A stretch of DNA of 64,000 bases from NCBI RefSeq assembly GCF_002117005.1, contig NZ_CP021023.1, positions 248,001 to 312,000 on the forward strand, given 5' to 3'. The translations under genes were made by a program, and so were the position numbers. The notes under the pieces were generated by a model. That model searched no databases. It was not told the origin of the DNA and was given only the letters and a program-made list of their open reading frames with translations. Each line of letters begins with the position of its first letter. Position 1 is the first letter of the stretch. Origin of the DNA: Sedimentisphaera salicampi (GTDB taxonomy: Bacteria > Planctomycetota > Phycisphaerae > Sedimentisphaerales > Sedimentisphaeraceae). This document shows positions 40,891-55,653 of the stretch, piece by piece.

Positions 40891-42513
40891 ATGCTGAAAA
40901 GGCTTTTGGTCGTAGATGACGAACCTTCAAACATCTTTACTCTTCAGTCTATGCTGGAGTACAGGGAGGACTTTGCTGTTGATTCCACGGAATCGGGGTT
41001 TCAGTGTATTGAGATGGTTAAGCGGAACAAGTACGACTTAGTTTATCTGGATATTATGATGCCTGAGATTGACGGGTTTCAGGTATGCGCAAAAATCAAG
41101 GAAATCAATGAAAACATCCCTGTGATTCTGGTTACAGCCCTAAGCGACAGCGATTATCTCCGCAAGGGGTTTGAGGCAGGAGCGATAGATTATATCAGAA
41201 AGCCTGTTGATGACCTCGAACTCAAGGCCAGGACTAACAATATACTGAAGAACAAAGAGGCCGAGAATAAAATACGGGAGCTTTATTCGAGCCTTCTAAG
41301 AGATCTGAAGGTCGCTTCGAAGATTCAGTCTCATATGCTTCCGCCGGAGTTTGTTGTAGATACTGATATGAATTTCTGTTCCGGCTATTCCCCCTCCACC
41401 CAGATCGGAGGGGATCTCTACGATATAATAAAGCTCTCTGCTGATCGGATTTTCGTCTATATTGGCGATATATCCGGACACGGGGCTCAGGCAGCCCTTC
41501 TTATGGCTGCTGTTAAGTCCACTATAAGGGTGATCATAGAGGAAAAGGAGGGTGAAATAGAGCCCTATGAGCTTATGAACATACTCAACAAAACCCTTGC
41601 CGGCAATTTATTCGAGAATCATTATATGACACTTCTTGCCGGCGTGATTGATTTAAGCAGCGATGAGTTTACCTTTTTCAACGCAGGCCATCTTCCAATT
41701 ATCCAATTTAACTGCAAGCAGAGAAAGGGCTCTCAGCTTGCAAACAAAGGCTCAATCCCAATCGGCTGGGATTCTTCCCTTGAATACCACAAGGAAGAGC
41801 AGGATACAATCACCCTCTCCGGTGATAACATTTACATCCTGCTTACAGACGGGATTATTGAGTGCGAAGGGCCGGACAGCGAAGAACTGGGGATTGAGGG
41901 CTTTATAGACCTGCTTGAGAGTGTGATAATCCCTGATACCTGCCTGCTCCTGCCGCACAAGGTGAAGAGTTGGCTGCACAATGCCGGCTACGAGATCAGT
42001 CAGGATGATTTCTCAATGCTCAGTTATGAGAAGAGCTCCAACCCAAACACCTTCACTTTCGAGCTGAGCCAGCTCACAGGCGCAGCAGAATCCGGAATCA
42101 CCAAGTTTGAACCCGCAGACTACAATCTGGACAACGTGTCTCTTGCGAGCAAGATAATCGAAAGGCTCTGCTATGAAAAAAGCTTCTCCAGCAAGCTCGC
42201 TGCAGAAGCTGAACTGGTTACAAGCGAGTTTGTTACTAATATAATTTCCCACGGCTTGAAGCCAAATGAAGTGCCTTTGGTTTTAGTGCAGCTCTTATTT
42301 GATGAAAGCGGAGTGAACCTGCGTTTTGTAGATAATGGAGTTGAATGGAAACCAGATATACTGCAGGCGAGCTTGGCAGGCTTTTTCGAGAAGCTGGATA
42401 AATTCTCAGAATCCGGCAGGGGAATGGCGATCATCAAGAGTATCTCCAAGGCGATAAAGAGGCAGCGTTTTGACGGTATGAACGAAACCTCCGTATATCT
42501 TGTGAATGATTAG
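40891..42513 (+). CDS. Receiver - PP2C phosphatase - HATPase kinase regulator (HsbR/SypE-like)
   Basis: 540 residues. A receiver domain (~4-118) has phosphoacceptor Asp54 (VYLDIMMPE) and Lys104 (YIRKP). A SpoIIE/RsbU-type PP2C domain (~150-370) has the metal residues in GGDLYD (173-178) and GDISGHG (192-198). A C-terminal RsbW-like Ser kinase (~400-540) has an N-box (VTSEFVTNIISHG), FVDNGVEW and GRGMAII. Such proteins both phosphorylate and dephosphorylate a STAS protein, with the receiver choosing between them. The STAS partner is at 48943. The layout matches Pseudomonas HsbR and recalls Vibrio SypE, both of which control biofilm. It should set exopolysaccharide output here. Confidence 0.92.
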   Translation: MLKRLLVVDDEPSNIFTLQSMLEYREDFAVDSTESGFQCIEMVKRNKYDLVYLDIMMPEIDGFQVCAKIKEINENIPVILVTALSDSDYLRKGFEAGAIDYIRKPVDDLELKARTNNILKNKEAENKIRELYSSLLRDLKVASKIQSHMLPPEFVVDTDMNFCSGYSPSTQIGGDLYDIIKLSADRIFVYIGDISGHGAQAALLMAAVKSTIRVIIEEKEGEIEPYELMNILNKTLAGNLFENHYMTLLAGVIDLSSDEFTFFNAGHLPIIQFNCKQRKGSQLANKGSIPIGWDSSLEYHKEEQDTITLSGDNIYILLTDGIIECEGPDSEELGIEGFIDLLESVIIPDTCLLLPHKVKSWLHNAGYEISQDDFSMLSYEKSSNPNTFTFELSQLTGAAESGITKFEPADYNLDNVSLASKIIERLCYEKSFSSKLAAEAELVTSEFVTNIISHGLKPNEVPLVLVQLLFDESGVNLRFVDNGVEWKPDILQASLAGFFEKLDKFSESGRGMAIIKSISKAIKRQRFDGMNETSVYLVND

Positions 42514-45864: not shown

Positions 45865-46983
45865 ATGAAAATATTCGTTAGCGCTATGGCGTTCGACAGC
45901 GGAAGAAGCGGCATCTCAAACTACATCTATAACGTGGTTAGCGGGCTTGCGAAGAAAGCTAAGATTGAGCTTGCTGTTTTGAGCTCCGATGCAAAATTCT
46001 TTGAGGGTATGGAGAATGTTGAGCTTGTGAAATATCCTGATTTTTTCGGCTGCCCAGCTTTCAATGCCCTCTGGCATCTGTTTGTTTTGCCCTTCCGTCC
46101 TGCTGCGGGTAAATGTGATTGCATTTTCCTCCCTGCGGCAAACAGGAGGCTCTTTTCGTGGTTCTCAAGGCCTTCTGTGGCAACCTTCCACGACCTCTCA
46201 CAATTCCATGTATCTGAAAAATACGACCGTTTGAGGGTTTGGTATGTTTTTAAGTTTCTGAGAAAATTTTTGAACAGGGCCGATAAGATCTGTGCAATCA
46301 GCAAAAGCACAGAGGATGATATACTCAAATATTACAATATAGATAAGAGCAGGATATTCGTAAACTACAACGGCTTCGACCGTAAGCGTCTTGACACTGA
46401 ATATTCCCCGGAAAAGCTCGCTGAGCTGAGAGTTGAGCCACCTTATATTTTGTATATATCAAGAATTGAACACCCGGGCAAGAACCACCTGAACCTCATA
46501 AAAGCCTTTGAGCAGCTAAATGATCATTATTCTGAGTATCAGCTTGTCTTTGCGGGCAGCGATTGGTCTGGCGCGAGAGCTGTAAGGGAGGCCGCCGAGA
46601 GATCTGAGAAAAAAGAGCGAATAAATTTTCTGGGCTTTGTTGAAGATTCCTACCTGCCTCAACTCTACAAAGGGGCATCGGTATATGCGTTTCCTTCATT
46701 TTGCGAGGGGTTTGGTATTCCTCTTCTGGAGGCGATGTATTGCGGCATTCCCTGTGTTTGCTCCGAAAATACTTCTCTGGAAGAGATCGGCGGAGATGCC
46801 GTATTGCTTTTTGATCCGAAAAATCCGCAGGAAATCGCAGAAAAGATAGAACTGGCTGTCAAGGATGAAAAGCTCAGCTCAGAGCTGATTGAGAAAGGGA
46901 AAAAGAGGGTTGAGGACTTCAGTTGGGAGAAGCACGTTGAGTCAATTTTGGATCAGTTCACAAACATAAGGAGCCGAAAGTGA
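45865..46983 (+). CDS. Family 4 (GT-B) glycosyltransferase
   Basis: 372 residues. N-terminal MKIFVSAMAFDSGRSGISNY, acceptor-side VATFHDLSQFHV, donor domain ILYISRIEHPGKNHLNLIKA, and VYAFPSFCEGFGIPLLEAMY carrying the E-x7-E motif of GT4 mannosyl/rhamnosyl-type transferases. A GGAGGG site precedes the ATG. The stop overlaps the GTG start of the next gene by 4 bp (GTGA). Confidence 0.92.
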   Translation: MKIFVSAMAFDSGRSGISNYIYNVVSGLAKKAKIELAVLSSDAKFFEGMENVELVKYPDFFGCPAFNALWHLFVLPFRPAAGKCDCIFLPAANRRLFSWFSRPSVATFHDLSQFHVSEKYDRLRVWYVFKFLRKFLNRADKICAISKSTEDDILKYYNIDKSRIFVNYNGFDRKRLDTEYSPEKLAELRVEPPYILYISRIEHPGKNHLNLIKAFEQLNDHYSEYQLVFAGSDWSGARAVREAAERSEKKERINFLGFVEDSYLPQLYKGASVYAFPSFCEGFGIPLLEAMYCGIPCVCSENTSLEEIGGDAVLLFDPKNPQEIAEKIELAVKDEKLSSELIEKGKKRVEDFSWEKHVESILDQFTNIRSRK

Positions 46984-48200
46984 GGCGGCTTATAGACATA
47001 ATTGTTTCTGTTATAGTCCTTATTCTGATTTGCTTGCCGAGCGGGATTGTATGGGCGTTTGTCTCAATATTTGCCGGCAAAGATTTTCTGACTTGCAGAA
47101 TAATTTTCGGTAAAGATTTCAAGCAGGTTAAGGTTTGCTGGTTTGGGATGCAAAGCTCTTTTTTTTCTTCGCTGCCCCTGTTTTTAAGCCTGCTTAAAGG
47201 CGATATTACGCTTGTCGGTACGAGTTTCTACCCCTGCGAGGAATACTCCCAAAGCCAGATACCTGAAAAAATTGCAGAATTCAAGCCGGGGATTTTTAAT
47301 TTGTGGTATGTCAAAAGGCATACAAAAATCCATCATGCTGAAAAAACAGATATAGATCTTCTCCAGCTCAGCGGAAGGGGACTCAAAAAAGACTTTGCTA
47401 TAATGGTAAAATACATTCCTGCTTCGATCTATAAATCCGATGAGGGCTCTATTAAAGACAGCGTTACCCTTCTGGATGTTACCTTTAACAACTGTACTAT
47501 GAACGAGGCATTGAGGTTTATTCAGAAGGGGGTTGAGAATTCTGCCAAAGGAATGTACTTTTTTATAAATCCTGATTGTTTAAATAAAACCTTCACAGAC
47601 AAGTATTATTTTGATATACTAAGGAAGGCCGATTATGTGTTTCCTGATGGAGTAGGAATAAACATAGGCAGTAAAATGACAGGACAGACTCTGAAACAAA
47701 ATGTAAATGGGACTGATATGTTCCCTTTGCTTTGCAGTATGTGCGAGCAGAGGGGCTATTCTATATACTTTCTTGGTGCAAAACCAGGCATAGCCGCCAA
47801 GATGGTTTCAATGCTGAAAGAGAAATATACCAGATTAAAGATAACAGGCTTCCGAGACGGCTACTTCAACAAAGATACTGAGAGCGAGTCTGTTATAGAT
47901 GCAGTAAATGAAACAGGTGCTCAGGTACTTCTTGTGGCATTTGGCGTGCCTGTTCAGGAAAAGTGGATTTATGAAAACAGAAGCAGGCTTGCTCCGCCGG
48001 TAGTAATGGGCGTGGGCGGATTGTTCGATTTCTACTCGGGCAATATAAAGCGAGCCCCCGGCTGGCTGAGGGATTTAGGCGGCGAGTGGATTTACCGCCT
48101 TATTCAGGAGCCCGGGCGAATGTGGCGGCGTTATATTTTGGGAAACCCGGTGTTTATTCGCCGGGTGCAAAAATGGAAGAAGCAATTAGATAAGGGTTGA
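46980..48200 (+). CDS. Degenerate phosphoglycosyl-transferase module fused to a WecG/TagA-type GT26
   Basis: 406 residues, GTG start with AAGGAG 7 nt upstream. Residues ~1-150 align with the sugar transferase at 48203: RRLIDIIVSV helix, LFLSLLKGDITLVGTSFYP, FKPGIFNLWYV and DIDLLQL match RVIDIAGSL, LFNVLKGDMSLVGPRPP, VRPGITCVWQV and DLDYI. The catalytic Asp-Glu pair is replaced by Ser63-Ser64 and the middle section is missing. Residues ~165-400 are a GT26 domain (DVTFNNCTMNEAL, FFINPDCLNK, ADYVFPDGVGINIG with Asp223, FGVPVQEKWI, GVGGLFDFYSG), which adds the second sugar of a lipid-linked unit. The dead module probably tethers the GT26 to the membrane. Confidence 0.85.
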   Translation: MRRLIDIIVSVIVLILICLPSGIVWAFVSIFAGKDFLTCRIIFGKDFKQVKVCWFGMQSSFFSSLPLFLSLLKGDITLVGTSFYPCEEYSQSQIPEKIAEFKPGIFNLWYVKRHTKIHHAEKTDIDLLQLSGRGLKKDFAIMVKYIPASIYKSDEGSIKDSVTLLDVTFNNCTMNEALRFIQKGVENSAKGMYFFINPDCLNKTFTDKYYFDILRKADYVFPDGVGINIGSKMTGQTLKQNVNGTDMFPLLCSMCEQRGYSIYFLGAKPGIAAKMVSMLKEKYTRLKITGFRDGYFNKDTESESVIDAVNETGAQVLLVAFGVPVQEKWIYENRSRLAPPVVMGVGGLFDFYSGNIKRAPGWLRDLGGEWIYRLIQEPGRMWRRYILGNPVFIRRVQKWKKQLDKG

Positions 48201-48202
48201 AT

Positions 48203-48922
48203 ATGGACATCGATCCTATTGTAAGACAGCAGCTTCTTGATGAAGTTGTAACAGCACCGACAAAGTCGGAGCTGCTTAAGAGAAAGATGAAGGTCTATAG
48301 TTGGGAATGGACTCTGATTTTTTCTTTATTTCTGAAAAGAGTTATTGATATAGCAGGCTCTTTGACGGCGATATTGATTTTGTCTCCCGTCTTTATTATC
48401 ACTGCGTTAACAATATATCTGCACGATAAAGGCCCTGTGCTGTTCGTTCAGAAAAGAGTGGGCAAGAACGGGCGTCTTTTCGATATGTATAAATTCAGGT
48501 CTATGGTTGTAAACGCAGACAAGATCAAAGACGAAATTTTAGATTCCAACGAATCTTCTGATGGTGTTATATTCAAAATGAAAAAGGACCCAAGAGTAAC
48601 CCCCATCGGCAGATTTATCAGGAAATTCAGCATAGATGAGCTGCCTCAGCTGTTTAATGTGCTTAAAGGAGATATGAGCCTTGTAGGCCCAAGGCCTCCG
48701 CTCCCTGCTGAGGTTGCCCAATATACACTGGAGCAGAGAAAAAGACTGCATGTTCGCCCGGGGATAACCTGCGTCTGGCAGGTTTCCGGCAGAAGCGATA
48801 TACCATTTACACAGCAGGTGCAGCTTGATTTGGACTATATAAAAAGCCAGAGCTTTATTACTGATGTTAAATTACTCTTAAAAACTATACCGGCAGTTTT
48901 GCTTGGCAAAGGCGGATATTAA
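48203..48922 (+). CDS. Polyprenyl-phosphate sugar phosphotransferase (monotopic PGT)
   Basis: ATG at 48203 (239 residues), 6 nt after AAGGG; the TTG at 48197 is a poorer start. A hydrophobic re-entrant helix (~46-72) is followed by the conserved KRVGKNGRLFDMYKFRSM, the catalytic Asp145-Glu146 in FSIDELPQLFNVLKGDMSLV, GPRPP, and RPGITCVWQVSGR with LDLDYI. It transfers a sugar-1-phosphate to undecaprenyl phosphate, the first committed step of repeat-unit assembly on the cytoplasmic face. It lacks the extra N-terminal four-helix region of WbaP/WcaJ. Confidence 0.95.
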   Translation: MDIDPIVRQQLLDEVVTAPTKSELLKRKMKVYSWEWTLIFSLFLKRVIDIAGSLTAILILSPVFIITALTIYLHDKGPVLFVQKRVGKNGRLFDMYKFRSMVVNADKIKDEILDSNESSDGVIFKMKKDPRVTPIGRFIRKFSIDELPQLFNVLKGDMSLVGPRPPLPAEVAQYTLEQRKRLHVRPGITCVWQVSGRSDIPFTQQVQLDLDYIKSQSFITDVKLLLKTIPAVLLGKGGY

Positions 48923-48942
48923 ATAAAGAAGAAAGGAACTTT

Positions 48943-49278
48943 ATGAAGTTCGACATGGAAATACGGGATGATGTTTGCGTGCTTTCTTTGGAAGGCAGGC
49001 TGGACTCTAACACTGTGCAAAATCTGAAAACTCAATTCGATAAGTATATCGAAACAAACAGCAAGTTTGTTTTTAATCTTGAGAAGCTTGAGTTTATAGA
49101 TAGTACTGGTCTTGGAGGGCTGGTTTCATGTCTGAAGAAAACCATCCCCAAGGGCGGTGATCTCAAAATTGTTAATCTTTCTCCAAAACCGAAAATGGTG
49201 TTTGAGATTACTCGTGCTCATAAGGTCTTTGATATCTATGACGATTTAGATACAGCGGTTGAGAGTTTTAGTTTGTAA
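48943..49278 (+). CDS. STAS-domain anti-sigma-factor antagonist (SpoIIAA/HsbA-like)
   Basis: 111 residues, a single STAS domain. MEIRDDVCVLSLEGRLDS is the first strand region and the phosphorylation site is Ser54 in FIDSTGLGGL. It is the expected target of the PP2C/kinase protein at 40891. AAAGGA lies 7 nt before the ATG. No sigma or FlgM-type partner is adjacent, so its output may be a direct protein target, as SypA is thought to have in Vibrio fischeri. It lies between the PGT and a fusion carrying a dead PGT module. Confidence 0.93.
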   Translation: MKFDMEIRDDVCVLSLEGRLDSNTVQNLKTQFDKYIETNSKFVFNLEKLEFIDSTGLGGLVSCLKKTIPKGGDLKIVNLSPKPKMVFEITRAHKVFDIYDDLDTAVESFSL

Positions 49279-49305
49279 ATATATTCTTCCTGCTGAAGGG
49301 ATTCT

Positions 49306-50703
49306 ATGAAGGCTCTTATTTATTGCAGACCTGACAATACCGACTGGGTGAAAAGCTTTTTCCCAGACGAGTCTCCGTATAAGCTCAGAATAGCGAATAA
49401 GCCGCTTCTGGAGTATTATGTGGATTTCTGCGCGCTTATAGGAATCAAACAGATAAGGGTGGTTACAGTTGATGATAACGGAAGCATCAACAACTTCCTT
49501 GGCAGCGGAGAGAGTCTGGGCGTTGATATAACTTACAATCTTTCAAGAAAAGAAGATTCTCTTGCAAAGGTGTTCCTGAAAAACAAGGGTTTCTGCACAA
49601 GCTCTGATCTTTTGGTGATTGATGGATTCGGTTTTATCAATTATGACAAGGAAAAGGTGGATTACTCTGATTTTATTAACGCCTCTACGGGCTATCTTCA
49701 GGAAGGTGATTTCAGAATCTATTCTCTGAACAGCCGTGATACGGAGGGGCGTGTTGACTGGGAAGCTCTTGAGGAGTTTCTTGATTCCACGCTCTCAATC
49801 TCCCGTATAGACGGCATTCAGGACTATTTCGCCCTGAGCAGGTCGGTTATAAGGGAAAGAGCCGCCAATTTTGTTCTCCCGGGCTACAGCAGCGAGAGGG
49901 ATGTATTTATCGGCCAGAATGTTGCTCTTGCAAAAAGCAGCAGGATCGATAAGCCCGTTATGATAGGAAATAACGTGCAGCTCAGAAATTCCTGCTCTAT
50001 CGGAGCGGAAACAATAATCGGCGATAATATAATCATAGACTCCGATGCCACAGTATCTTCGAGTATTATATATGGAAACAGCTATATCGGTCCTGGCGTT
50101 GAGCTTGTAAACAAAATCGTGTACAAGAATTACCTGATCTCTCCGGATACCGGCGACAGGATAGAGATTGTTGACAGCTTCCTCACTTCCAAGATTGCTG
50201 AGAAGGCCAGAACAGCTACAATAAGAAAATTTGCTCACTACGCTATTACGATTTTCCTTATTATAGTTTACTGCGTTCCTTACAGTGTCTTTTGGCCGTT
50301 TGTCAATGCGAGCAGAGATAATTTTAAACGAAAAAGCTTTGTGATTTCAAAAAATCTGCGCACAGTGAGAGTGAATGTTGTAAATAAAAGCAATTTTATT
50401 CTCAACCTGTTTGTTAAGCTTTCTCTCGATAAATTCCCGCTTCTGATAGAGGCGTTCAAGGGAAATATTCATCTAACCGGCAACACGCTCTATGAGGACA
50501 CTGATAAAACCCGTAATTTTATTGAATCTCTTCAGTTTTATAGGCCAGGAATATTCAGCTACTCTGAGAGCATATCACCAAATTACGACTTAGATCAGGC
50601 TATGCTCAACGATTCGTTTTACTGTTATCACAGAACGCCGCTTATGGATATTCAGGTTTTGTTTGGGTCTATCTTTAACAGATTTTTTTATAATAATCAG
50701 TGA
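49306..50703 (+). CDS. Degenerate nucleotidyltransferase - beta-helix - degenerate PGT fusion
   Basis: 465 residues. N-terminus (~1-190) follows the sugar-nucleotidyltransferase fold (RIANKPLLEYYVDFCALIG) but lacks the GxGTRL nucleotide loop; the start is MKALIYCRPDNTDWVKSF. Residues ~190-300 form left-handed beta-helix hexapeptide repeats (VFIGQNVALAKSS, VMIGNNVQLRNS, CSIGAETIIGDNIIIDS). Residues ~305-465 are a second dead PGT module: a hydrophobic helix, FPLLIEAFKGNIHLTGNTLY and YRPGIFSYSE, with the DE pair of the active PGT at 48203 replaced by Asp-Lys. No active-site residues are seen in either end domain. A scaffold role for the cytoplasmic glycan machinery is the best guess. Confidence 0.78.
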   Translation: MKALIYCRPDNTDWVKSFFPDESPYKLRIANKPLLEYYVDFCALIGIKQIRVVTVDDNGSINNFLGSGESLGVDITYNLSRKEDSLAKVFLKNKGFCTSSDLLVIDGFGFINYDKEKVDYSDFINASTGYLQEGDFRIYSLNSRDTEGRVDWEALEEFLDSTLSISRIDGIQDYFALSRSVIRERAANFVLPGYSSERDVFIGQNVALAKSSRIDKPVMIGNNVQLRNSCSIGAETIIGDNIIIDSDATVSSSIIYGNSYIGPGVELVNKIVYKNYLISPDTGDRIEIVDSFLTSKIAEKARTATIRKFAHYAITIFLIIVYCVPYSVFWPFVNASRDNFKRKSFVISKNLRTVRVNVVNKSNFILNLFVKLSLDKFPLLIEAFKGNIHLTGNTLYEDTDKTRNFIESLQFYRPGIFSYSESISPNYDLDQAMLNDSFYCYHRTPLMDIQVLFGSIFNRFFYNNQ

Positions 50704-51342: not shown

Positions 51343-52467
51343 ATGGCGAGCAGATATACAGTTTACGGAGATAAGATTGATTCGCTTATAGACAGCCACT
51401 GCGAGATTATAAATCAGGCGGTGTTATCTGTAATTCCTGACCACGTACTTGTGGCGGTAGTTCTTGCAGGCGGATACGGAAGGCAGGAGGGAGGCGTTTT
51501 CTTTGAAGATGGAGAGGAGAAACTCTACAACGACTACGATATGTTTGTCGTAATTAAAGACGGAGCGAAGGCGTCTGATTATCAGGAAAAGCTAAACGCA
51601 CTTTCTCCTTCTCTGGAGGAACAATGCGGTATAGAGGTGGATTTCGGCCCCCTTAAAACTGTTTCTCAAATGAAACGCGCGCCGTTTACACTTTTTAACT
51701 ATGAGCTCAAATACGGGCATAAAATTATCTGGGGAAATAAAAATGCCCTTGATATAATGCCCGAGTATGAAGGCAGCCGGATCAGCCTTATGGAAGCAGC
51801 CAAGCTCCTGCTGAACAGAGGTGCCGGGCTTACCCTTGCTTCTGAAAGATTAAAGGAGGGGCGGCTTGATAAAGAGAAGGACGAATTCATTACGCGGAAT
51901 ATTTATAAGGCCCTGATGGCGCAGGGCGATTCGCTAATTATGGCTGAAGGGCAGTATCATTATTCATACCTCAAGAGGCTTGAGATATTTAACGGCCTTC
52001 AGCAGAATCCTGAGACAGCTCAATTCGGTCTTGCAGAGCTTTATGCAGATTCTATGGAATATAAATTTCGCCCGAAGAGGAATATCTTTTCGAAAAAGCA
52101 GTTGGAAGAGCTACTCGAAAAAACTGTTGATTTGCATCTGCAAATATACTGCTATACAATGAGCAGGCTTTACCAAACTGATAATAATTTTGAAGCGGTT
52201 TTATATTCGATAAAAAATAAGCAAATGCAGAATTGCAGCTTAAAGCAGATTCTCAAAAATGTTGTACTGAACTCCCGCACGTGCGGGTTTGAGAATTTTT
52301 CATTTAAATGGTATTTGAAGTACCCACGATACAGGCTTTTTTATGTGCTGCCTCATTTTCTCGGGGATAAAACTCTGGATTTAAGGCAGATTTGCTGCGC
52401 ACTAGGCTGTGAAAAGGAAGATCGCAAACGTGAAAGGTTTATGCGTTTGTGGGAAAGGTTTAACTGA
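51343..52467 (+). CDS. Pol-beta-type nucleotidyltransferase domain protein
   Basis: 374 residues. N-terminal minimal nucleotidyltransferase: LAGGYGRQEGG, then NDYDMFVVIK with the two metal-binding Asp, and a third Asp in GIEVDFGPL. A helical region (~130-290) follows that resembles the HEPN-like substrate-binding partners of such domains. The C-terminus is basic and unassigned. It is 10 bp after the kinase gene and overlaps the next gene by 1 bp (TGATG), so the three are made together. I do not recognise a characterised relative. Confidence 0.78.
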   Translation: MASRYTVYGDKIDSLIDSHCEIINQAVLSVIPDHVLVAVVLAGGYGRQEGGVFFEDGEEKLYNDYDMFVVIKDGAKASDYQEKLNALSPSLEEQCGIEVDFGPLKTVSQMKRAPFTLFNYELKYGHKIIWGNKNALDIMPEYEGSRISLMEAAKLLLNRGAGLTLASERLKEGRLDKEKDEFITRNIYKALMAQGDSLIMAEGQYHYSYLKRLEIFNGLQQNPETAQFGLAELYADSMEYKFRPKRNIFSKKQLEELLEKTVDLHLQIYCYTMSRLYQTDNNFEAVLYSIKNKQMQNCSLKQILKNVVLNSRTCGFENFSFKWYLKYPRYRLFYVLPHFLGDKTLDLRQICCALGCEKEDRKRERFMRLWERFN

Positions 52468-53612
52468 TGGGCAAGAAGATAACAATATGCACCTTTATCG
52501 ATGCTTTCGGATGGGAAGTTTACAAGAGGTACGGTTTTCTGGATGATATTCTTCCGGAGGCGAGAAGGCTTCGTACAACTTTCGGCTTCTCTTCAGCAGC
52601 AGACCCCTCAATACTTACCGGCCGCTATCCTGATGAGCATACCCACTGGTCGTGCTTTTATTATGCCCCCGAAAATTCGCCGTTCAAACTTATGAAACTG
52701 CTTTCCATACTGCCCCGCCAGATCTTCGACAGAGGCCGTGTACGGCACTGGCTGAGCAAGATACTCGCGAAGTTTTACGGATATACTGGCTATTTCCAAA
52801 TATACAGCGTCCCATTTGAGGTTTTGCCGTATTTTGATTATTTGGAGAAGAGAGATTATTTTGTTCCCGGAGGCATACTCGCTACCGACACCATTTTCGA
52901 CAGGCTCTACAGCGAAGAGATTCCCTATCACTGTTCCAACTGGCGTTTGCCTGAGAAGAGAAATCTCGAGATTGCCAAGGATACAATTAACGAGGGCAAG
53001 ATTGAATTTATGTATCTCTATCTCCCCAAGCTTGATGCTGTTATGCACGAATTCGGGAATAATGCTCCGCAGGTGGAAGAGAAGATAAGATGGCTTGAAG
53101 AGCAGGTAAGGGAAGTGAAAAAGCTTGCTGAAGAAAAATATGATGAAGTTGCGTTTTTTGCTATCTCAGACCACGGAATGGCTAACGTAACAGAATCGGT
53201 AGATCTGATCTCACAAATAGACTCACTCGGCCTTGAATTTGGCAAGGATTATGTTGCTATGTACGATTCTACTATGGCAAGATTCTGGTTTATGAACGAC
53301 AGCGCCAGAAGCCGGATAACAGAAAAGCTAAATCAATGCAGTAAAGGGTATATAGTAAGCGATGAAGAACTCAAACAGATGCGGGTGTTCTTTGAAGACC
53401 GTAAATTTGGAGAGGTGATTTTCCTGATGAATGCCGGCACCTTGATAGTCCCGAGCTTTATGGGGCTTAAGAGCATTCCCGGAATGCACGGCTATCATCC
53501 GGATGACAAAGATTCTTACTGTTTTATAAAGTCCGACAGGCATATACCCGAAGACGTAAATTCAATAACTGATATTAGAAGAGCCTTGGAGCGAGAGATC
53601 TCTAATGTATGA
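52467..53612 (+). CDS. Alkaline-phosphatase-superfamily hydrolase/phosphotransferase
   Basis: 381 residues, no signal peptide or membrane helix, so cytoplasmic. Metal residues match the nucleotide-pyrophosphatase/phosphodiesterase branch: FIDAFGW at the N-terminus, a candidate nucleophile in SSAADPSILTGRYPDEHTHW, LPKLDAVMHEFG, and AISDHGMANV plus PGMHGYHPDD near the end. Most relatives are exported, so an intracellular form inside an exopolysaccharide locus is unusual. Start overlaps the previous stop (TGATG) and its own stop overlaps the next start by 8 bp. It may act on a phospho-linked precursor made by the two preceding gene products. Confidence 0.85.
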   Translation: MGKKITICTFIDAFGWEVYKRYGFLDDILPEARRLRTTFGFSSAADPSILTGRYPDEHTHWSCFYYAPENSPFKLMKLLSILPRQIFDRGRVRHWLSKILAKFYGYTGYFQIYSVPFEVLPYFDYLEKRDYFVPGGILATDTIFDRLYSEEIPYHCSNWRLPEKRNLEIAKDTINEGKIEFMYLYLPKLDAVMHEFGNNAPQVEEKIRWLEEQVREVKKLAEEKYDEVAFFAISDHGMANVTESVDLISQIDSLGLEFGKDYVAMYDSTMARFWFMNDSARSRITEKLNQCSKGYIVSDEELKQMRVFFEDRKFGEVIFLMNAGTLIVPSFMGLKSIPGMHGYHPDDKDSYCFIKSDRHIPEDVNSITDIRRALEREISNV

Positions 53613-55653
53613 ACCTGACAATGATCAGCATTTAACCCACTCATTTGACCCTGCTGCAAGAGGCTTGATGCATGCCCAGCAGGAAATGGGGGGAATGAAC
53701 CTCCTTATAAGGCTTAATTTTAAGTATATACTTAAGCTCTTGCTGTACTGGCTTCTGCCTATTACCATGATCTCGATCGGCTCGGGGCTTGCTTCATTTT
53801 TCTATATCTCAAAATACAAAACCAAGGTTTACACCACTCAGGCAATTATGGTTAGGCTCGGCCGAAACGAAGAGGGGCCGTATCTGTATCCTCAGGTTGA
53901 TGCTAATACTGTTCTGGAAACAGTTAAGATAAGACGAAATCTGGAAAAGGTGATAGACCGGCTGGATCTTGAAATGAATGTGAGGGATCTATACGGGATT
54001 ATAAAGGTTCGTGCAGGGAATCGGTCTGATACTTTTTACGTAACCACCACTTACAAGGATCCCGAGCTTTGCAAAGATATAGCAAATACAATGTGCGAGG
54101 TTTTTATTGAAACTTATTCGAAGGTTTTCAATGAATCTGCTCAGGAGGTTTATCAGTACTATCTCAGTCAAAGGGAGAAAGTGTTTCAGCAGGTTAGCGA
54201 TGCTGAAGATGAGCTGAAAAAGGTTAAGGAAAAGCTGGGCGTGATCCAGCCGGATCAAGAGCTCGAAATGAAGATGGGTCAGCTCAGTGATGCGGAGGTG
54301 GCTTATCAGGAAGCCCTTATGAAGAAGGAGGAGCTCAATTCTAAAATTGAGGATATGAAGAAAAGGATTGCCGACCTGCCGGAGAAGATTCAGGTTAGTG
54401 AAACTATTACAAGAGAGAGCGGCAAAGAAATCGAAATGCTTGAGCGGGAACTTGAAAGGAGCCTTCAGAGATACACAGAGAATAACCCCAAGATAAAAGA
54501 GATGAAGCTCAAGCTTAAGCAGCTTAAAAAGTACAAACAAGAGAATGCTCAGGAAAAGGAAGTCCCGGACAGCAGGACATTTTCACTTAACACGATTCGT
54601 CAAGATCTCGAATCGCAGCTCACTTCTATGAAGAATGAGTATGTAGTTTTGGATGAAACTATTTCAAAAAGAAAAAAACGCATTGAGGAGATTCGTTCAG
54701 AGCTCAAAGGCATTTCAAATATTCAGGAGGAATATATGAATGCCAAGCATAAAGTTGATGTTTCACGAGAGCTTTTGGACGTTATAGACAGACGAATATC
54801 TGAAGTTAGGATAGCTAAGGATTCAAGTTCCCACGATATAGGTATCCTTGAAAGGGCGGTTGCTCCGGTTTTCCCGGAGCCCACAGGCCGGAAAATTCTG
54901 GCAATTGTTTCAACCTTCGGCACCGCTTTCTTCGGCGTGGTATTTGTGCTGGTTTATGCAATATTTAGTCCGGGCGTCAAGGTGCCCGGAGACCTTGATT
55001 CCATGACAGCCGTTGAATTTATAGGAACTCTTCCCAAAAAGAAGAATTCTACCCTTACCACTTATTTTTCTACGCTTCAGGTGGTGGTTAATAAGATCGA
55101 CCAGCTCACAAGCAGCGGTACTATAATGGTAAGCTTCTCTTCAGTGAAGAATAAAGAGGGTAAGAGCACAATAATGGATGATATAACAGATATGAAATCC
55201 GTTACAGGCAAGAGGTTTTTGATCCTAAAGCGTGTAGTAGAAGAAGACGCAAAGAGGATTATTCAGGTGCCAAAGGAATCTATAATCAATTTCCAAGACT
55301 TCAGGGAAGAGAATATGGATCTGCCCGAGCCGGTTAGGATAAATGAAAGGGTCTCAAGGCTTTACTATATTATCGACAGCAACGTCAGCAAGATGAACAT
55401 TCTTCCCGAAATGGTGGAAAACTTCAAAAACAGCTTCTCAGAATATGATTACATCTTCGTTGAGCTGTTTTCTCCGAAGAAAAATTATCAGGTTTCCAGC
55501 TGCATTATGCATTCTTCAAACTACAATATTCTTGTAACAAAGTATGGAAGCAATACAGTATCTGCTTTGGATAAGGTTACCAAACTTGCTTCAGCAGGGA
55601 CCGACAAAAAAGTTGGTACAGTGATTAATTTTGGTGATTTAAGTTTGGGTTGA
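53605..55653 (+). CDS. Wzz-type chain-length protein with degenerate BY-kinase domain
   Basis: 682 residues. Membrane helix 1 (~45-70, LLLYWLLPITMISIGSGLAS), a periplasmic part with long coiled coil (~180-440), membrane helix 2 (~425-455, AIVSTFGTAFFGVVFVLVYA) and a cytoplasmic C-terminus (~470-682). That part keeps a Walker-A-like FSSVKNKEGKST, but the Asp of Walker A-prime and Walker B are gone (FLILKRV and YIFVELFS) and no C-terminal tyrosine cluster exists. The GTVIN strand near the end still fits the fold. It sets polymer length with the Wza-like protein downstream; kinase activity is not expected. Confidence 0.88.
   Translation: MYEPDNDQHLTHSFDPAARGLMHAQQEMGGMNLLIRLNFKYILKLLLYWLLPITMISIGSGLASFFYISKYKTKVYTTQAIMVRLGRNEEGPYLYPQVDANTVLETVKIRRNLEKVIDRLDLEMNVRDLYGIIKVRAGNRSDTFYVTTTYKDPELCKDIANTMCEVFIETYSKVFNESAQEVYQYYLSQREKVFQQVSDAEDELKKVKEKLGVIQPDQELEMKMGQLSDAEVAYQEALMKKEELNSKIEDMKKRIADLPEKIQVSETITRESGKEIEMLERELERSLQRYTENNPKIKEMKLKLKQLKKYKQENAQEKEVPDSRTFSLNTIRQDLESQLTSMKNEYVVLDETISKRKKRIEEIRSELKGISNIQEEYMNAKHKVDVSRELLDVIDRRISEVRIAKDSSSHDIGILERAVAPVFPEPTGRKILAIVSTFGTAFFGVVFVLVYAIFSPGVKVPGDLDSMTAVEFIGTLPKKKNSTLTTYFSTLQVVVNKIDQLTSSGTIMVSFSSVKNKEGKSTIMDDITDMKSVTGKRFLILKRVVEEDAKRIIQVPKESIINFQDFREENMDLPEPVRINERVSRLYYIIDSNVSKMNILPEMVENFKNSFSEYDYIFVELFSPKKNYQVSSCIMHSSNYNILVTKYGSNTVSALDKVTKLASAGTDKKVGTVINFGDLSLG

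Follow-up and report, generated by a model that had tools for sequence, protein, structure and literature searches.

Two fusion proteins encoded in a polysaccharide cluster of Sedimentisphaera salicampi carry dead modules of the monotopic phosphoglycosyl transferase (PGT) family, with an active PGT encoded between them. The window analysed is a 64,000-nt stretch of contig NZ_CP021023.1 (positions 248,001 to 312,000), in which the core gene set studied here occupies 46980-50703 and consists of four tightly packed genes (4-bp overlaps or 20-27 bp gaps) encoding, in order, a fusion of the first dead module (pPGT1) to a GT26 domain, the active PGT, a single-domain STAS protein, and a fusion of a dead nucleotidyltransferase (NT) and a left-handed beta-helix (LbH) to the second dead module (pPGT2). 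The two fusions are best explained, with moderate confidence, as subunits without catalytic activity in a conserved module for polysaccharide initiation. That the dead modules have a conserved role other than catalysis near the first steps is well supported by their conservation, their synteny, and their retained re-entrant-helix features.

Homology to monotopic PGTs and loss of catalytic features

The Pfam profile PF02397 (Bac_transf), run on the window proteins with its curated cut-off, matches the active PGT (48197-48922) at 1.3e-69 and pPGT1 (residues 64-147 of the GT26 protein) at 1.8e-9, above the cut-off, with the match to pPGT2 of the window (residues 369-458, 1.2e-4) falling below it (22.1 vs 27 bits) and the pPGT2 relatives in genomes G442 and G212 exceeding it. 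A local PGT hidden Markov model gives pPGT1 45.1 bits, where shuffled sequences reach at most 7.0, and pPGT2 10.8 bits, where they reach at most 5.5, a modest margin for a single sequence. Comparison of family profiles with hhalign relates pPGT1 to the active PGT (E = 1.2e-20), pPGT2 to the active PGT (E = 3.7e-9), and the dead modules to each other (E = 6.3e-12), and a profile of six NT-LbH-pPGT2 proteins retrieves WbaP (8t53, E = 6.7e-13) and PglC (8e37, E = 1.7e-9) from the PDB, with matches that span the whole pPGT2 module, membrane helix included. As the shuffle controls, the profile-profile comparison, and the PDB profile search agree, both modules are PGT-like beyond chance. AlphaFold2 models of the single modules, made from the window's own sequences with shallow alignments, have pLDDT values of 36.8 and 47.4, too low for the models to be used. 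The initial annotation of this DNA, whose open reading frames lie where it placed them, had read both fusions as carrying dead PGT modules, and these results confirm it: both are genuine monotopic PGT relatives that have lost the catalytic features.

Ten dead modules (four pPGT1 and six pPGT2, including two same-genus pairs) were compared with 26 active PGTs collected in this analysis. The Asp-Glu (DE) dyad is present in all 26 active PGTs and in none of the dead modules, as is G[P/V]RP, and the KFRSM block is found in 24/26 active PGTs and again in no dead module. In the window, the DE of the DELPQL motif (residues 147-148 of the active PGT from its TTG start, equivalent to the previously given 145-146 when counted from ATG 48203) aligns with SS63-64 of pPGT1 and D375-K376 of pPGT2, the same replacements as first annotated. 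Furthermore, the distance from the proline of the re-entrant membrane helix (RMH) to the “LP” of DELP is ~30 residues shorter in the dead modules (median 53, range 45-68) than in the active PGTs (median 85, range 70-93). The lost stretch lies between KFRSM and DELP, and matches by position the mobile loop of PglC (61-81), which closes on the UDP-sugar (PMC12550135; PMC10519829). Neither the loss of YKFRSM, PRP, and these ~30 residues, nor the STAS and REC-SpoIIE-HATPase genes described below, featured in the initial annotation.

The RMH proline, at the break of the re-entrant helix, is present in all ten dead modules. This residue gives the re-entrant helix its shape and is important for topology and for binding of polyprenol (PMC6133551), and a re-entrant topology is predicted for the dead modules from its retention. 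The blocks KGD..G..PGI..D are likewise kept across very distant lineages; in place of the RPGI originally noted, pPGT1 carries KPGI. The dead modules appear to keep the membrane/polyprenol side of the PGT fold and to drop its nucleotide-sugar side.

The NT domain of the second fusion is also dead, as had been proposed, with the glycine-rich signature loop GGxGTR...PK absent in all six aligned NT-LbH-pPGT2 proteins; the NT plus LbH profile matches 8x7s at 3.5e-32 and GMPP-beta 7d72 at 1.5e-18. The GT26 domain of the first fusion is matched by PF03808 over the full length of the profile (1-168/168, 210.6 bits, 1.6e-62), and looks intact; it would putatively transfer a sugar to a lipid-linked acceptor.

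Conservation, distribution, and origin

The dead modules are under purifying selection and are not decaying. Two-sequence estimates between two species of the same genus, in which the cluster is syntenic, give a ratio of non-synonymous to synonymous substitution (dN/dS) of 0.033 for NT-LbH-pPGT2 (95% identity) and 0.15 for pPGT1 (73% identity), with the former divided by domain into 0.05 for pPGT2, 0.04 for NT, and 0.004 for LbH. The STAS protein of the window is 99% identical in the sister species.

In a survey of 392 genomes sampled across the phylum, with sampling outside it in effect confined to plasmids, NT-LbH-pPGT2 was found in six genomes (the two same-genus species, G253, G240, G212, and G442) belonging to five scattered families, and a search of the relatives of three of these yielded no further cases. 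The complete set is present in G253, from another Planctomycetota family, as one adjacent block of STAS, NT-LbH-pPGT2, pPGT1-GT26, and PGT, and related gene sets occur in G240, G212, G163, and plasmid NZ_CP032322.1 of Azospirillum argentinense. The plasmid encodes pPGT1-GT26 and then, within 5 kb, an active PGT and a dead NT-LbH without pPGT2, together with a STAS protein; G163 has a dead NT-LbH, also without pPGT2, beside STAS and PGT. The pPGT1-GT26 fusion was found in the window genus and G253 and, beyond the phylum, on the Azospirillum plasmid. A tblastn search of plasmids with the NT-LbH-pPGT2 proteins of the window and G442 gave no full-length relative, and two scans of genome contigs gave no relatives.

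The active PGTs of these loci share one tree group (support 85/91) with a few others, and in a tree of dead and active modules the dead branches are too long for one origin to be told from several. The suggestion that the modules are duplicated copies of the PGT encoded between them is not borne out, as they recur in distant lineages and are too divergent to root. The gene set is an old module of patchy distribution and not the product of a local duplication.

Other fusions of these domains were encountered in the survey. Fused GT26 proteins elsewhere in the order were considered as dead-PGT fusions and rejected, having WecA/TagO-like-GT26, GT4-GT26, or other architectures. Three of these (L070, L071, and L072; 764-779 aa, assigned by eye with no profile) join a polytopic WecA/TagO-like PGT to GT26, coupling steps 1 and 2 using the other PGT superfamily. 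Long GT26 coding sequences on Rhodobacterales plasmids were rejected likewise, being active fusions in which GT26 is followed by an active PGT in one chain (Roseobacter-group plasmids L193 7145-8470, L194 6905-8296, and L195 6968-8341), annotated merely as WecB/TagA/CpsF family glycosyltransferase. Additionally, LbH is joined to an entire PGT that retains DE in L165, L167, L169, L166, L168, L009, L025, and L026 (536-698 aa where complete), from the same order and elsewhere in the phylum; these are the active counterpart of NT-LbH-pPGT2, and such a fusion is a possible ancestor of its architecture.

Linkage to a STAS gene and a candidate switch

A STAS gene adjoins the dead genes, or lies within ~5 kb of them, in each of the six lineages for which the flanking sequence suffices (the window lineage, G253, G240, G212, G163, and Azospirillum). 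STAS genes are otherwise rare, numbering two in the window genome (3.19 Mb), 38 in G253, 19 in G240, six in G212, seven in G163, and two on the Azospirillum plasmid. Rough chance estimates of the linkage for an 11.5-kb target are 0.007, 0.05, 0.06, 0.015, and 0.01 for the window lineage, G253, G240, G212, and G163 respectively, uncorrected for post-hoc choice of the feature or for the possibility that polysaccharide loci are enriched in STAS genes generally. The same STAS query revealed no STAS gene in four other PGT loci.

The STAS motif is DS[ST]GLG in the window, G253, G240, and G212, and SSAG in G163. SpoIIE-type regulators are encoded near the gene set in the window, G253, G240, and G212, with that of G212 shorter at 435 aa, and no SpoIIE gene was found among five Azospirillum proteins scanned. 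The components of a partner switch, comprising STAS with a phosphorylatable DS[ST]G motif, a SpoIIE phosphatase, and a HATPase_c_2 kinase-like domain, are present in the window, G253, and G240. This recurring linkage of STAS and REC-SpoIIE-HATPase, an argument from gene linkage, is the strongest hint of regulation.

Proposed role of the dead modules

As the same gene set recurs beside an apparent on/off switch in very distant bacteria, the dead domains probably serve a structural or regulatory purpose, and the scaffold or allosteric partner originally envisaged is plausible. With the membrane/polyprenol side of the fold kept and the nucleotide-sugar side dropped, the economical reading is that a dead PGT module would act as a membrane/polyprenol docking and assembly domain. 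We infer that pPGT1 would keep GT26, the enzyme of step 2, on the membrane next to the active PGT of step 1, forming a complex that couples the second step to the first, and that pPGT2 would hold the dead NT-LbH subunit beside the same PGT. This subunit would probably sense nucleotide sugar or the state of the switch and adjust initiation. Nucleotide-sugar sensing is speculative, and is suggested by the architecture; GMPPA, a non-catalytic nucleotidyltransferase relative, is known to regulate by binding nucleotide sugar (PMC11228364). The STAS protein would serve as the on/off input, its phosphorylation set by the REC-SpoIIE-HATPase protein, with binding of STAS to the complex and the sign of its effect likewise speculative.

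A more specific proposal, which we make tentatively, is a heteromeric initiation complex of the active PGT and two PGT-derived pseudoenzyme subunits, one carrying the second-step glycosyltransferase and the other a dead NT sensor, switched by a STAS partner switch that targets the complex. If true, this would be an undescribed kind of polysaccharide-initiation control and a concrete candidate for a SypA-type STAS target. Several observations weigh against non-catalytic subunits of an initiation module: small monotopic PGTs have been reported to be monomeric (PMC12802240), the dead NT-LbH proteins of G163 and Azospirillum lack pPGT2, which is therefore not indispensable, GT26 is fused to pPGT1 in three lineages only, and the set is rare.

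It is rather doubtful that the dead modules are simple membrane anchors, merely tethering GT26 and the beta-helix protein without a specific partner. GT26 enzymes act at the membrane, where tethering would help, and every module has a re-entrant helix with its proline, however the membrane helix of pPGT1 is its least constrained part (dN/dS 0.47), with the soluble remnant the most constrained (0.09, and 0.03 over the last 55 residues, 101-155), a pattern that fits neither decay nor a plain anchor well. The conserved KGD..G..PGI..D blocks would also be superfluous for such an anchor.

Alternatively, the modules may take part in a hand-off of lipid-linked substrate, with pPGT1 binding the undecaprenyl-diphosphate-sugar product of the PGT and presenting it in cis to GT26, and pPGT2 reading the lipid pool. 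We consider this unlikely. The kept parts (RMH, proline, and C-terminal half) form the polyprenol side of the fold and the lost part the nucleotide-sugar side, which would fit such a role, but PRP is lost.

Enzymes with another chemistry are very improbable, in spite of several near-invariant positions in these conserved domains, as the loop closing over the nucleotide sugar is absent and the dyad position has no substitute shared across lineages (SS, HR, KG, DK, LF, TR, RR, RR). Conserved alternative catalytic residues, which the initial annotation had named as a ground for refuting its reading, were not found. Decaying, functionless remnants of former PGT fusions, for which the active LbH-PGT fusions of the same order offer a plausible ancestor, are similarly improbable and largely refuted by the low dN/dS, the uninterrupted reading frames, and the recurrence of this dead architecture across distant lineages.

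Initiating PGTs draw on a scarce pool of undecaprenyl phosphate, and how cells gate them is largely an open question. That two PGT-derived pseudoenzymes are conserved next to an active PGT and linked to a STAS switch suggests an unnamed layer of control and assembly. It also provides a target that can be tested for the STAS proteins of such loci, a question that stands for SypA as well.

Other features of the locus

The core set (Table 1) belongs to a polysaccharide cluster that also encodes GT4/GT2 enzymes and contains Wza-like, Wzy-like, pyruvyltransferase-like, and flippase-like genes, and the bacterium is a producer of exported polysaccharide. A uridine-kinase-like gene follows the NT-LbH-pPGT2 gene with a 4-bp overlap. 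The protein encoded at 51343-52467 of the window has only a marginal nucleotidyltransferase match and has relatives in the polysaccharide clusters of G253 and G176, and is a conserved unknown of polysaccharide loci. A Wzz/Wzc-like chain-length protein (53605-55653) has a C-terminal kinase-like region that looks degenerate (NKEGKST, without a P-loop Pfam match), and is perhaps another pseudoenzyme in the same cluster. In the G253 locus, an exosortase-like gene (PF09721; L113 1576-3390, reverse strand) lies a few kb from the set.

Table 1. Positions of the core genes, their domains, and the candidate switch protein in the window
Feature	Position	Strand	Details
pPGT1-GT26 fusion protein	46980..48200	+	406 aa; GTG start; 4-bp overlap with both neighbouring genes
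pPGT1, dead monotopic-PGT module	46980..47444	+	Residues 1-155; RMH Pro20 kept; DE replaced by SS (63-64); mobile-loop segment and KFRSM missing
GT26 (WecG/TagA/CpsF) domain, apparently intact	47457..48197	+	Residues 160-406; PF03808 1.6e-62; TIGR00696 above cut-off
Active monotopic PGT with N-terminal extension	48197..48922	+	241 aa; DE at 48635-48640; TIGR03025 just above cut-off
Single-domain STAS protein	48943..49278	+	DSTGLG motif; starts 20 bp past PGT gene
NT-LbH-pPGT2 fusion protein	49306..50703	+	465 aa
Dead RmlA/GMPP-type nucleotidyltransferase domain	49306..49845	+	Signature GGxGTR...PK lost
Left-handed beta-helix (LbH) domain	49846..50190	+	dN/dS 0.004
pPGT2, dead monotopic-PGT module	50203..50700	+	RMH Pro325 kept; DE replaced by DK (375-376)
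REC-SpoIIE-HATPase_c_2 protein, candidate switch phosphatase/kinase for the STAS protein	40891..42513	+	~4.5 kb upstream of core genes

Comparison with known systems

In the open-access literature, no described equivalent of the dead-PGT/GT26/NT-LbH/STAS combination was found, and nothing relevant on a PGT pseudoenzyme or on a STAS switch acting on a glycosyltransferase. The closest relatives of the dead modules are the monotopic PGT superfamily and Bi-PGTs (PF02397; PglC, WbaP), which share the homologous domain, the RMH with its proline, and the KGD..VG..PGI blocks, and in which fusion of PGT to other domains is known (PMC10942596). In those proteins, however, the PGT domain is an enzyme, whereas here it lacks the dyad, KFRSM, and the mobile loop, with a separate neighbouring gene for an active PGT.

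A non-catalytic partner has been proposed as an allosteric controller of an initiating PGT in EpsZ/EpsW of Myxococcus xanthus (PMC12802240), although the partner there, EpsW, is a response regulator of a single domain that acts on a large dimeric PGT, in contrast to the PGT-derived pseudoenzyme candidates and small PGT considered here. In a polysaccharide locus of Vibrio fischeri, SypE/SypA similarly pairs a serine kinase/phosphatase with a single-domain STAS protein, SypA, which acts below transcription on an unknown target (PMC10120452). Compared by description, the gene set is different, with no dead PGT or NT-LbH mentioned in that paper. In GMPPA/GMPPB, a non-catalytic nucleotidyltransferase-family protein regulates its active relative via bound nucleotide sugar (PMC11228364), but the system is eukaryotic, acts on a pyrophosphorylase, and is without a PGT module. 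Finally, the active GT26-PGT fusions of Rhodobacterales also place GT26 and a monotopic PGT in one chain, but with the PGT C-terminal and its DE intact. Together with the WecA/TagO-like-GT26 fusions of the same order as the window, these show that coupling of step 1 to GT26 is favoured.

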